From: Candidatus Dormiibacterota bacterium
GTDB taxonomy: Bacteria; Chloroflexota; Dormibacteria; CF-121
Assembly: GCA_035544955.1 (NCBI GenBank)
Contig: DASZZN010000005.1
Coordinates: 1 to 64,000 of the forward strand
Direction: 5' to 3'
Length of the DNA: 64,000 bases
How positions within the stretch are numbered: the first letter of the stretch is position 1; each line of letters opens with the position of its first letter. The notes under the pieces were generated by a model, which saw only the letters and a program-made list of their open reading frames with translations, ran no database searches and had not been told where the DNA came from. Positions 30,574-36,263 of the stretch are shown here, one piece after another. The position numbers and the translations under genes are program-made.

Positions 30574-30591
30574 GTCTCGTCCGTGACTGCA

Positions 30592-30692
30592 TCATCTTTC
30601 AGACTCTCGTCTGACGGACTTTCCACCTTGCCGGTCACCCGGTAGGTTGGCAGGCATCTCTGGGCCGGTCCCTCCGCCACTCTTGATAACCG
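30592..30692 (-). promoter_or_regulatory. SAM-I (S-box) riboswitch aptamer
   Basis: Read on the minus strand, the conserved S-box blocks follow in order: TTATCAAGAG, GGAGGGACCGGCCC, GATGCCTGCCAACC, CAAGGTGGAAAGTCC and GAAAGATGA. The 5' GTTATC and 3' GATGAT strands can form P1 with two wobble pairs. SAM binding would favour the terminator at 30545-30573 and switch off thrC-asd-lysC-thrB. S-boxes usually control methionine genes; here the operon supplies the common trunk and the competing threonine branch. Confidence 0.9.
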
Positions 30693-30748: not shown

Positions 30749-31735
30749 CTACGTAATTCGGGGCATCCCCCCATAAACCGGGGTACACCATTGCCGGTAG
30801 CGCGGGTCCTGGCCCCGCACCGCGCGGAAATAGGCCTCCTGGAGTCCCATTGTGATGGTGCCGGGCCGGCCGGTGCCAACCCGGCGCCCATCCACCTCGA
30901 CGATCGGCGCCACCTGGACGCCGGTGCCGCAGAGGAAGGCCTCATCGGCCTGGTAAACCTCGGTGCGGTCGATGCTTCGCTCGACGACGTCGAGCTCGAA
31001 GTCGAGGGCCAGCCGCATGACGGCGGCGCGGGTGATGCCAACCAGGATGTCATCCGTGACGGGGGGTGTGACCAGGGTTCGGCCCTGGACCATGAAGAAG
31101 TTGGCCGCGGCCCCCTCGGCGATGTGACCGTCCTCCGTGAGCATCAGGCAATCGTCGTAACCGGCGGCGTTGGCATCTTCCGTGGCCAGCGCGGTGTTGA
31201 CATAGGCGCCGGTGATCTTCGCCCGGGCCGGGATGCTGTTGTCGCTGACCCGCCGCCAGGAGGAGATCGTGACTCGCAGCCCGTCGATGCGCGCGTAGGC
31301 CCCCATCGGCATGGCGAAAATCGCAACCGCATCCTCGGACGAGTGCAGATCGACCTTGATCATGGCGGAGGCCTTGTAGGCGATCGGCCGGACGTAGACG
31401 TCGGTCCGGTAGCCGTCACGGCGGACGATCTCGCGGGTCAGCTCGCACAGCTGGTCGACGTTCTCCTCGACCTTGATCTTGAGCAGCGCCGCCGACTTGA
31501 GAAACCGCTGGTAGTGCTCGGCCAATTTCAGGAGGTAGATCTCATGCTGCTCGGCGTTCCAGTACCCGCGGATCCCCTCGAAGCACGCCGTGCCATAGTT
31601 CAACGCGTGGGTGCCGATGCTGACGTTCGCCTCTCCGAAGGGCACGATCGCGCCCTTGAAGTAGGCAAAGCCACCATAGACCGCCTTCGTTGGCGGGGGT
31701 GGCGCCGTTTCCGGGTGCAGGGGCTCGATTGCCAT
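30749..31735 (-). CDS. ilvE: Branched-chain amino-acid aminotransferase
   Basis: This 328-residue class-IV PLP enzyme carries out the last step of Ile, Val and Leu synthesis. The PLP Lys lies in ARAKITGAYVNTALATEDA. HIAEGAAANFFMV and CGTGVQVAPIVEVDGRRVG form the cofactor and substrate loops, and LNYGTACFEGIRGYWN is the N-terminal signature. It overlaps the leuA stop by one base and ends the ilv/leu operon. Confidence 0.93.
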   Translation of the reverse strand: MAIEPLHPETAPPPPTKAVYGGFAYFKGAIVPFGEANVSIGTHALNYGTACFEGIRGYWNAEQHEIYLLKLAEHYQRFLKSAALLKIKVEENVDQLCELTREIVRRDGYRTDVYVRPIAYKASAMIKVDLHSSEDAVAIFAMPMGAYARIDGLRVTISSWRRVSDNSIPARAKITGAYVNTALATEDANAAGYDDCLMLTEDGHIAEGAAANFFMVQGRTLVTPPVTDDILVGITRAAVMRLALDFELDVVERSIDRTEVYQADEAFLCGTGVQVAPIVEVDGRRVGTGRPGTITMGLQEAYFRAVRGQDPRYRQWCTPVYGGMPRIT

Positions 31736-32967
31736 CAGGCGATAGCCCCCACCCTGCCCTCCCCCTGAGGGGGAGGGGCCGTTGTTGCGAGCGATTGCGT
31801 GAGGCGCACGATATCCTCCAGGTCCCGATCGAGGATGTCTTTCTTGCGGTCGGCGAGCTCCAGGAAGAGCTCCCAGGCCCGGCCGAAGTCCGCCTCCGAG
31901 AGGTGGTACCCGAGCTCGCGGAGCCGGAACTGAAACGCGTGGCGCCCCGACCTGGGGGAGAGCACGATCCGGCTCTCTCCCATCCCTACCTCTTCGGGCC
32001 GCATGATCTCGTAATTCAGCTTGTCTTTGAGAATGCCGTCTTGGTGAATCCCGGAAGCGTGTGCAAAGGCATTTGCGCCGATCACCGCCTTGTTCGGCTG
32101 CACCGGGATGCCGGTGTGCTTCGAGACCAGCGCGCTGACCTCCGCCAGGCGAGTGGTGTCGATACCGGTTCGCAGCCCGAGCGACTTCTCGCGGGTCCGC
32201 AGGATCATCACGACTTCCTCAAGCGAGGCGTTGCCGGCCCGCTCGCCGATGCCATTGATCGTGCATTCGACCCGGCGGGCGCCATTCAGGACCGCGGCGA
32301 CGCTGTTCGCGGTCGACAGGCCGAGGTCGTTGTGACAATGCACGCTGATCAAGGCGCGGTCGATGTTGCGGACGTTGTCGCGGATCGACGCGATCAGCGC
32401 CCCGAACTCGTTGGGGAGCGTGTAGCCCGTCGTGTCGGGGATGTTGACGACCGTGGCGCCGGCGTCGATCACGGCCTCGAGCGTTTCGAAGAGGTACGCG
32501 AGATCGGCGCGGCCGGCATCCTCGGGCGAGTACTCGACGTCATCGCAGAGCGAGCGGGCATAGGTAACGGCTTCGACGCCGCGGCGGAGCACATCGCGCC
32601 GGTTGGAGCGCAGCTTCCGCTCGATATGGATGTCGGACACCGAGAGCACCATGTGGATCTGCTTTCGCTCGGCATCCTGGACAGCCTGCCATACAGCATC
32701 GATGTCGGGACGAGCCGCCCGCGCCAGCGCGGTGATCATCGGGCCCCGAACCTGCCGGGCGATTCGCTGCACCGCCTCGAAATCGCCGGGAGAGGAGAGG
32801 GGGAAGCCGGCCTCGATTACATCAACGCCGAGGCGAGCGAGCTGCCAGGCGATCGCCAGTTTCTGATCCGGGGTCAGCGAGGCGCCGGGCGATTGCTCGC
32901 CGTCGCGCAGGGTGGTATCGAAGATGAACACGCGGTCGCCGGTCGGTGTCGGTACTCGGGCCTCCAT
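31735..32967 (-). CDS. leuA: 2-isopropylmalate synthase, short form lacking the regulatory domain
   Basis: The 410-residue protein has the full DRE-TIM catalytic barrel: [20 protein letters not shown], the metal-binding [20 protein letters not shown] and [21 protein letters not shown] linker follows ([40 protein letters not shown]), and then it stops. The C-terminal leucine-binding domain of about 120 residues present in typical LeuA is missing. The last residues ([13 protein letters not shown]) are coded by a 9-bp inverted repeat, so the domain may have been lost when that repeat arrived. Feedback by leucine is therefore uncertain. Confidence 0.9.
31757..31777. repeat. Perfect 9-bp inverted repeat at the end of leuA
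   Basis: CCCTCCCCC-TGA-GGGGGAGGG lies inside the leuA 3' end. Such G/C-rich palindromes with this Gly-Glu-Gly-Arg-Val translation are common dispersed repeats in many high-GC genomes. Only one copy is seen here. Confidence 0.6.
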
Positions 32968-33977
32968 CAGTTGCTGGCCTTCTTGTCGGCTTTCAGCCAG
33001 GGCATCATGGCGCGCAGCTCCGCCCCGACCTTCTCGATCAGCTCGCCTTTGGCGCGCTGCCGGGAGGCGTTGAAGGCGGGCCGGCCGGCCTGGTTTTCCA
33101 GGATCCAGGTGCGGGCGAAGGTGCCGTCCTGGATCTCACGGAGGATCTGGCGCATCTCCTCGCGGACGGCGGGACTGATGATCCGTGGGCCGCTGACGTA
33201 GTCGCCGAACTCGGCGGTGTCGCTGATGCTGTACCGCATGTAGCTCATGCCGCCCTGGTACATCAGGTCGACGATCAGCTTCATCTCGTGGAGGCACTCG
33301 AAGTAGGCGAGCTCCGGCTGGTAGCCGGCTTCCACCAGGGTGTCGAAGCCGGTCTTGACCAGCGAGGTCAGTCCACCACAGAGCACGGCCTGCTCGCCGA
33401 AAAGGTCCGTCTCGGTCTCCTCTTTGAACGTCGTCTCCAGCACGCCCGCCATCGTCGAGCCGATCCCGCGGGCGTAGGCGAGCGTGCGGGCGCGCGCCTT
33501 GCCGGTCGTGTCCTGGTGGACGGCGAACAGCGCGGGGACGCCGACCCGCTCTTTGAAGAGCCGGCGCACGATATGGCCCGGCCCTTTGGGCGCGACCATC
33601 GCGACGTCGATATCCGCCGGCGGGAGGATCTGGCTGAAGTGGATGTTGAAGCCGTGCGCGAACATCAGCGCGCTGCCCGGCTTGAGGTTCGGCTTGACCA
33701 CCTCGTCGTAGAGCCGCTTCTGCGTCTGGTCCGGCACGAGCATCATCACCAGGTTGCCGAGTTCGACGGCCTTCTCGACCGTCTCGACGCGTAGGTCTTC
33801 CTTTTCTGCCGCCTCCCAGGACTTACTGCCCTTGTAGAGGCCGACCACGACATCGACGCCGCTGTCCTGCAGGTTCAGGGCGTGCGCGTGGCCCTGACTG
33901 CCGTAGCCGATGACCGCGACTCGCTGGCCCGCCAGCGCCGCCATGTCGGCGTCGTCGTCGTAGTAGACCTTGGCCAT
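32967..33977 (-). CDS. ilvC: Ketol-acid reductoisomerase (class I)
   Basis: This 336-residue NADPH enzyme isomerises and reduces acetolactate or acetohydroxybutyrate. [20 protein letters not shown] is the cofactor fold; [20 protein letters not shown] and [20 protein letters not shown], with acidic Mg ligands, form the active site. It shares one base with the leuA start and with the stop of the TPP enzyme, so the operon is tightly coupled. Confidence 0.95.
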
Positions 33978-35788: not shown

Positions 35789-35980
35789 TCAACCGCTGAA
35801 CATGCGATTGATCGCTTCGGTGACCTCGTGTCCGCGCCCGAACGGATGGGCCTGCGTTTGGCGCCCGGCGACGGCGGCGCTCAGCGCCTGCGTGCAGATG
35901 TCCGCCACGTCGATCTGGTGCCGTCGCTCCTGGATCTCGTGGTGCAACCCGTCAGGGATCTCGATGGTGTAGCTGGCCAT
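35789..35980 (-). CDS. 63-residue ribbon-helix-helix-like protein at the head of the ilv operon
   Basis: A beta strand (SYTIEIPDGLHHEIQERRHQ) followed by two helices (VADICTQALSAAVAGR and HEVTEAINRMF) resembles CopG/CcdA-type DNA-binding proteins or antitoxins; no toxin gene is adjacent. A GAGGAGG site lies nine bases before ATG 35980. The gene sits between the T-box and the acetolactate-synthase-like gene, so its translation is the direct target of the T-box. A role as operon regulator or coupling leader is inferred. Confidence 0.6.
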   Translation of the reverse strand: MASYTIEIPDGLHHEIQERRHQIDVADICTQALSAAVAGRQTQAHPFGRGHEVTEAINRMFSG

Positions 35981-35984
35981 TGGT

Positions 35985-36175
35985 ACCTTCCTCCTCGTTG
36001 CAGCTGGCTTGGTCGAACGACACGTTCCTGCTGCAAGGACGAGAGGATCGCCTCCCGCGGTACCACCCTGCTTGCGGCCACGGCCGCCGCTCTTGTCGAG
36101 CCGCCCGGCTCCGGGGGTGAGTAAATCCCCATCAACGCCGGTTGACTCAACCCGAAACGCTACCAGCCTCGGCCG
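35985..36175 (-). promoter_or_regulatory. T-box riboswitch, translational type
   Basis: On the minus strand AGGGTGGTACCGCG (36056-36069) and the downstream CGTCCTTG form the classic T-box antiterminator/antisequestrator pair. Upstream lies a short stem I in which GAGT/ACTC and CGGG/CCCG strands enclose a CAAC-CGGC-GTTG hairpin. There is no U-tract. Instead TTGCAGC (36030-36036) can pair with GCTGCAA (35998-36004), and adjacent TCCT with the AGGA of the ribosome site, masking it. The specifier codon is not certain: an ATT at 36124-36126 and a nearby CTC are candidates. Confidence 0.85.
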
Positions 36176-36263
36176 TGCGAGTCCATTGTGCAAACCATCC
36201 AAAAGTCATTGGTTCCTTTGGTCCTTCACGCCAGCCCCAGCTTGGGGCATACTAGTCACTCCC

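Follow-up and report, generated by a model that had tools for sequence, protein, structure and literature searches.

The window analysed here, a 64,000-nucleotide stretch of a Candidatus Dormiibacterota genome, carries a T-box-like leader in front of a small gene and a run of genes for Leu/Val biosynthesis. This raises the question of which tRNA the leader reads, and whether it acts on transcription or on translation of the small gene. A comparison across 15 related genomes speaks for the translational reading: the first gene of an ilv/leu operon is probably controlled at translation initiation by a leucine-sensing T-box, via pairing of the T-box bulge with a GGUACC motif and a sequestrator-based OFF state. 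The T-box architecture, the specifier, the absent terminator and the complementarities with their conservation can be read directly from the sequences.

The leader and its operon

The element lies on the minus strand at about 36148-35981, the window strand being opposite to the operon. The sequence-only reading had called a T-box here and had proposed an Rfam scan and assignment of the specifier as checks. Both agree with it, since Rfam model RF00230 matches at 36144-36032 (minus strand; 34.4 bits, E 3.7e-6), the specifier is leucine CUC, and the architecture is conserved in relatives. The match includes the T-box sequence AGGGUGGNACCGCG with antiterminator-type helices A1 and A2, as well as a K-turn Stem I with a specifier codon and a purine (CUC-A) that fits the Leu pathway. 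The score stays below the gathering cut-off of 93 bits, a value that guides searches and does not describe a biological property. Stem I is very short, its distal part being deleted along with Stem II, which accounts for the lost score. Therefore, a scan at the gathering threshold misses this T-box, and no genome of the class passes that cut-off, those with a long Stem I included. In the window, a covariance model trained on 13 relatives reaches 133 bits, the window being itself one of the training sequences. The features are collected in Table 1.

Table 1. Positions of leader elements and operon genes in the window, with the basis for each.
Feature	Position	Strand	Basis
T-box core AGGGTGGTACCGCG	36069-36056	-	sequence
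Ultrashort Stem I	36098..36148	-	leader alignment and pair counts; Rfam alignment matches K-turn motif
Leucine specifier CUC, then A	36119..36121	-	UUACUCA invariant in 13 leaders
Stem III, flanks AAGAG...AA	36074..36087	-	two pairs changed on both sides
Antisequestrator, A1 AGGG/CCUU and A2 GCGGGAGG/CCUCUCGU around bulge	36035..36069	-	A1, A2 100% paired in 13 sequences
T-box bulge UGGUACC, predicted binder of tRNA ACCA end	36059..36065	-	invariant
Sequestrator 5' arm UUGCAGC	36030..36036	-	conserved in 9/11 intact non-terminator leaders
Sequestrator 3' arm GCUGCAA	35998..36004	-	perfect complement of 36036-36030; conserved in same 9/11
Shine-Dalgarno region GAGGAGG	35990..35996	-	sequence; mostly paired in predicted OFF fold
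Start-proximal GGUACCA	35981..35987	-	GGTACC in 11/11 intact non-terminator, 0/4 terminator leaders
First gene, 63 aa, RHH-like by eye only	35789..35980	-	frame conserved in 16/18 genomes of order
Divergent acetolactate-synthase-like TPP enzyme, 598 aa	33977..35773	-	TPP_enzyme N/M/C domains
ilvC, ketol-acid reductoisomerase	32967..33977	-	KARI_N and KARI_C
leuA-like 2-isopropylmalate synthase	31735..32967	-	NF002086 above cut-off
ilvE-like class IV aminotransferase	30749..31735	-	Aminotran_4
SAM-I riboswitch	30589-30692	-	60.6 bits; directly upstream of threonine synthase gene

Domain and family matches of the downstream genes bear out an ilv/leu operon behind the small gene, in the order 63-aa gene, TPP enzyme, ilvC, leuA, ilvE-like gene, SAM riboswitch and thrC; this Leu/Val gene set was counted in favour of leucine sensing. 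The 63-aa protein has no family or fold match in Pfam, NCBIfam, PDB sequences or Foldseek, and its AlphaFold monomer model is weak (pTM 0.38). The TPP enzyme is very divergent, scoring 76 bits against TIGR00118 (cut-off 538), a cut-off that no protein in this 95%-complete genome passes. The best other match (C9) resembles IolD by eye, and in the related genus G002 the position of the divergent enzyme is taken by a canonical-looking ilvB. The start of the TPP enzyme lies 15 nt past the stop codon of the 63-aa gene, a spacing that would permit translational coupling to the later genes. Upstream, an imperfect but conserved inverted repeat, ACCAAxGACTTTTGGxT, lies at about 36180-36225, in the promoter region from which the leader and a PucR-type regulator gene diverge; it may be an operator or a binding site of the small protein encoded by the first gene.

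Specifier and reduced aptamer

Stem I consists of the basal helices GAGUC/GGCUC and CCGGC/GCCGG, a K-turn-like GUUGAU/GGA, a GGGG/CCCC pairing and the apical loop AUUUACUCAC. The CUC-A of this loop also aligns at the specifier of the long Stem I in the related genera G017 and G002. The genome encodes a tRNA-Leu(GAG) with A73, whose anticodon matches CUC and whose discriminator base matches UGGU, and CUC is the specifier in 74% of leucine T-boxes according to TBDB (PMC7778990). On these matches, the element appears to read a leucine tRNA. The apical loop at 36119-36124 (minus strand) holds two adjoining leucine codons, UUA CUC, and only CUC is common to the relatives with a long Stem I.

In the 13-sequence alignment of ultrashort leaders, 96.4% of the aptamer pair cells are standard and five pairs are changed on both sides; none of 500 shuffles reached the observed pairing and covariation values, and sliding the 3' partners cut the pairing to 42-60%. 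Within the antisequestrator, three A2 pairs are changed on both sides, and the A1 pair 86-119 (alignment columns) occurs as GU, GC or AU. A published motif, RRRxG-Stem III-AA (PMC7583486), is matched by AAGAG and AA on either side of Stem III, so that the discriminator looks complete.

Rfam aligns no Stem II in the window, and the Stem II S-turn and the IIA/B pseudoknot are absent. The gap between Stem I and Stem III is only about 10 nt, too short to accommodate either Stem II or the pseudoknot. A small hairpin, CUC-GACAA-GAG, was considered as a Stem II and rejected: it is broken in G011 and G003, and the basal Stem I helix built on that CUC is mostly kept. Stem II is regarded as essential for tRNA binding once Stem I is truncated, and a long Stem I is generally required in transcriptional T-boxes (PMC7583486). 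As judged from its leader sequences, this soil Chloroflexi lineage appears to break both rules. On current knowledge, a leader with neither Stem II nor the distal part of Stem I would be expected to bind tRNA weakly.

A predicted start-codon platform

The sequence-only reading had proposed that TTGCAGC/GCTGCAA and TCCT/AGGA pairing would bury the Shine-Dalgarno site. The arrangement of the leader supports this, with an arm that shares the 3' strand of the antisequestrator, the masking itself being predicted from folds. TTGCAGC and GCTGCAA flank a small hairpin, followed by GAGGAGG and then the ATG at 35980; the UU of the 5' arm is common to A1, and the UCC just before this arm can pair with the Shine-Dalgarno sequence. 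A second complementarity involves the bulge itself. The window GGUACCA can form seven pairs with the bulge UGGUACC, its ACCA has the same letters as the tRNA 3' end, and the unconstrained minimum free energy (MFE) fold pairs the bulge with the spacer.

GGTACC stands 1-2 nt ahead of the ATG in all 11 intact non-terminator leaders and is absent from the four terminator leaders, although this 11-versus-4 contrast reflects one or two evolutionary events, as the leaders are related. At positions -20 to -1, neither GGTACC nor GGTGCC was found in any of 219 SD-led long ORFs in about 460 kb of this genome, and seven contiguous pairs with the bulge, G-U allowed, are possible at 3 of 246 background ORF starts. 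Because GGUACC is complementary to the bulge and occurs in every intact non-terminator leader, the likely OFF state pairs the bulge with the start region, and of the two halves of the platform GGUACC is probably the more general one (11/11 versus 9/11 for TTGCAGC/GCTGCAA). With the bulge itself paired in this likely OFF state, we infer that the ACCA end of uncharged tRNA would compete directly with the mRNA for it. Neither the sequestrator arms nor the GGUACC pair show covariation; they are nearly invariant, and the bulge strand is not free to vary.

The main alternative is that the classical sequestrator acts alone, UCC-UUGCAGC pairing with GCUGCAA and the Shine-Dalgarno sequence as in actinobacterial ileS leaders, with GGUACC as an extended-SD coincidence. 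The perfect 10-bp arm UCCUUGCAGC/GCUGCAAGGA, which extends into the Shine-Dalgarno sequence in five species, and the UUGCAGC/GCUGCAA pair in nine are consistent with it; moreover, GGAGGU is a plain extended Shine-Dalgarno sequence, so that only the next ACC is left unexplained in the overlapping cases. However, G003 and G012 keep GGUACC while lacking the UUGCAGC/GCUGCAA arms, and GGTACC is kept despite 1-nt indels around it and is rare at other starts. Furthermore, GGTGCC or GGTACC stands at the start codon of another T-box gene, which is homocitrate-synthase-like, in all 16 genomes examined for that locus. We therefore consider sequestration by these arms alone rather unlikely. The second T-box of this genome (L001 1501-1761; G000 C8, minus strand), which precedes that gene, probably of the lysine pathway, has a long Stem I and a U-run terminator; the start codon there is preceded by GGTGCC, which is able to pair with the T-box bulge.

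In the window and the tested sequestrator-type relatives, cut at the AUG, the unconstrained MFE fold is a three-way fold that combines bulge:GGUACC pairing with the sequestrator around helix A2. The region from the discriminator to the AUG is more stable than dinucleotide shuffles (z -2.4 in the window, and -1.7 to -4.0 in five tested leaders). When 33 nt of coding sequence were added, the OFF state was favoured by 5-15 kcal/mol, several leaders took other folds, and upon tRNA binding the Shine-Dalgarno sequence was predicted to open only slightly or not at all in several species. Secondary-structure energies of this kind cannot settle the switch.

The preferred reading, bulge:GGUACC pairing together with the sequestrator, would work as follows. 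When charged, tRNA-Leu(GAG) would read the CUC specifier, while its 3' end could not enter the bulge. In this OFF state, the bulge UGGUACC would pair with GGUACC(A) just before the AUG, and UCC-UUGCAGC with GCUGCAA and the Shine-Dalgarno sequence, closing the ribosome-binding site; helix A2 could stay formed. Under leucine starvation, the ACCA end of uncharged tRNA would enter UGGU and helix A1 (AGGG/CCUU) would form, whereupon both sequestering helices would lose a strand and the Shine-Dalgarno sequence and AUG would be exposed. The later operon genes might then follow by coupling or reduced polarity. In this scheme, the binding of tRNA, the switching and the effect across the operon are predictions.

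Control of the operon might instead be mainly transcriptional: an untranslated first gene would expose the mRNA to Rho-dependent termination, the translational platform acting through polarity. There is a precedent in the M-box on a small uORF in Mycobacterium tuberculosis (PMC12810186), and the first gene here is short with the next start close behind, but nothing in the sequence singles this route out. As the main mode of control it seems doubtful, and it is compatible with the preferred translational switch.

Platform change among relatives and known systems

The sequence-only reading had also noted the absence of a U-run terminator. The terminator scan agrees, detecting no terminator-like site in the window, where the sequence after TTGCAGC is not U-rich, and none in the sequestrator-type leader of G009. 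The same scan found a terminator in each of the four terminator-type relatives: G002 and G017, from other genera, have a long Stem I with a terminator, while G005 and G007, from the genus of the window, combine the ultrashort Stem I with a U-run terminator. Eleven further leaders are intact and have no U-run terminator. Given the terminators of the sister species, the platform is of recent origin, and the expression platform appears to have changed within the genus on an unchanged aptamer. The sequestrator 5' arm aligns with the loop of the old terminator (CCCUGCAGG versus CCUUGCAGC), which suggests that terminator sequence was re-used as a sequestrator arm. G005 and G007 form a clade (support 100/100); the trees do not fix the branching order at the base of the genus. 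The outgroups have terminators, and one change from terminator to sequestrator is not rejected (p-AU 0.35). In the relative G013 (L004; also L076), a 40-nt deletion takes out most of the T-box discriminator, which is either a real loss or an assembly collapse of the hairpin.

This loss in G013 and the drastic reduction of Stem I could point to a decayed, non-functional T-box and an operon that is constitutive or promoter-controlled. Against such decay, 13 species keep the specifier, the bulge, A1/A2 and the flanks of Stem III either invariant or covarying, and 11 conserve the new platform, making it very improbable. A transcriptional attenuator with an undetected terminator is the least credible explanation, given that U-run terminators at this position in close relatives speak for an ancestral state of this kind while no hairpin with a U-run follows in the window or in G009.

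Actinobacterial ileS genes are known to carry T-boxes of the translational class (class II) and an ultrashort Stem I (Seliverstov 2005, PMC1262725; PMC7583486; TBDB, PMC7778990), and the sequence-only reading had assigned the leader to this class. The assignment stood in part. Shared with the actinobacterial leaders are the SD-sequestering platform, predicted in the window, the ultrashort Stem I with an apical-loop specifier and the standard discriminator (Stem III, A1/A2 and UGGN bulge). In contrast, the window leader has a leucine specifier, CUC, in front of an ilv/leu operon in Chloroflexi relatives, rather than an isoleucine specifier and ileS in Actinobacteria; it lacks Stem II and IIA/B, would pair its bulge with GGUACC before the AUG, and has sister species that put a terminator on the same aptamer. 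Like glyQS-type T-boxes it has neither Stem II nor IIA/B, whereas in those Stem I is long and retains the elbow-binding distal module, which is gone here. The T-box-like hisDCB leader of Corynebacterium glutamicum (PMC3896937) also combines proposed SD sequestration with a shortened leader and an amino-acid biosynthesis operon; however, it has no Stem III, a poorly conserved T-box sequence and its specifier in a bulge, while the discriminator in the window is canonical and the specifier apical. The pe20 M-box of M. tuberculosis (PMC12810186) is likewise a translational platform on the small, conserved first ORF of an operon, but it senses magnesium and uses Rho, and is an analogy for operon-wide control only.

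The literature covered yielded no account of a translational T-box specific for leucine, of an ultrashort Stem I lacking Stem II or of expression platforms being exchanged within one genus; earlier short-Stem-I transcriptional T-boxes may exist. In Bacillus subtilis, the ilv-leu T-box senses uncharged tRNA-Leu to control the ilv/leu genes, as is predicted here, while acting by transcription antitermination and with a full-length Stem I. Tentatively, the window leader may represent a T-box without the elbow-binding distal Stem I and without Stem II, in which the bulge is a sequestrator strand, GGUACCA mimics the acceptor end and competes with the tRNA ACCA, and the terminator was replaced within one genus. 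The B. subtilis leader is mentioned in PMC12452182. The relatives provide a natural series in one operon, from long Stem I with terminator through ultrashort Stem I with terminator to ultrashort Stem I with sequestrator, so that short RNAs could serve to test directly how riboswitch expression platforms evolve and what tRNA recognition minimally requires.

Among 400 genomes of the phylum and 110 of the class, the leader covariance model exceeded 90 bits only in the genus of the window. The 20 examined high-scoring matches outside the class, considered as ultrashort Leu T-boxes elsewhere in the phylum, turned out to be long-Stem-I T-boxes, mostly with U-run terminators. The ileS T-boxes of f4 were also rejected as ultrashort, since Rfam aligned a full Stem I with its distal loop. 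In another family of the class, the ileS T-boxes (L035, L036, L037, L041, L053 and L066) show a long Stem I and no Stem II. Most of these carry a variable SD sequestrator of the UCCCAGAGAU..AUCUCUGUGGA type and some a terminator-like U-run instead, so that platform swaps may be recurrent there.
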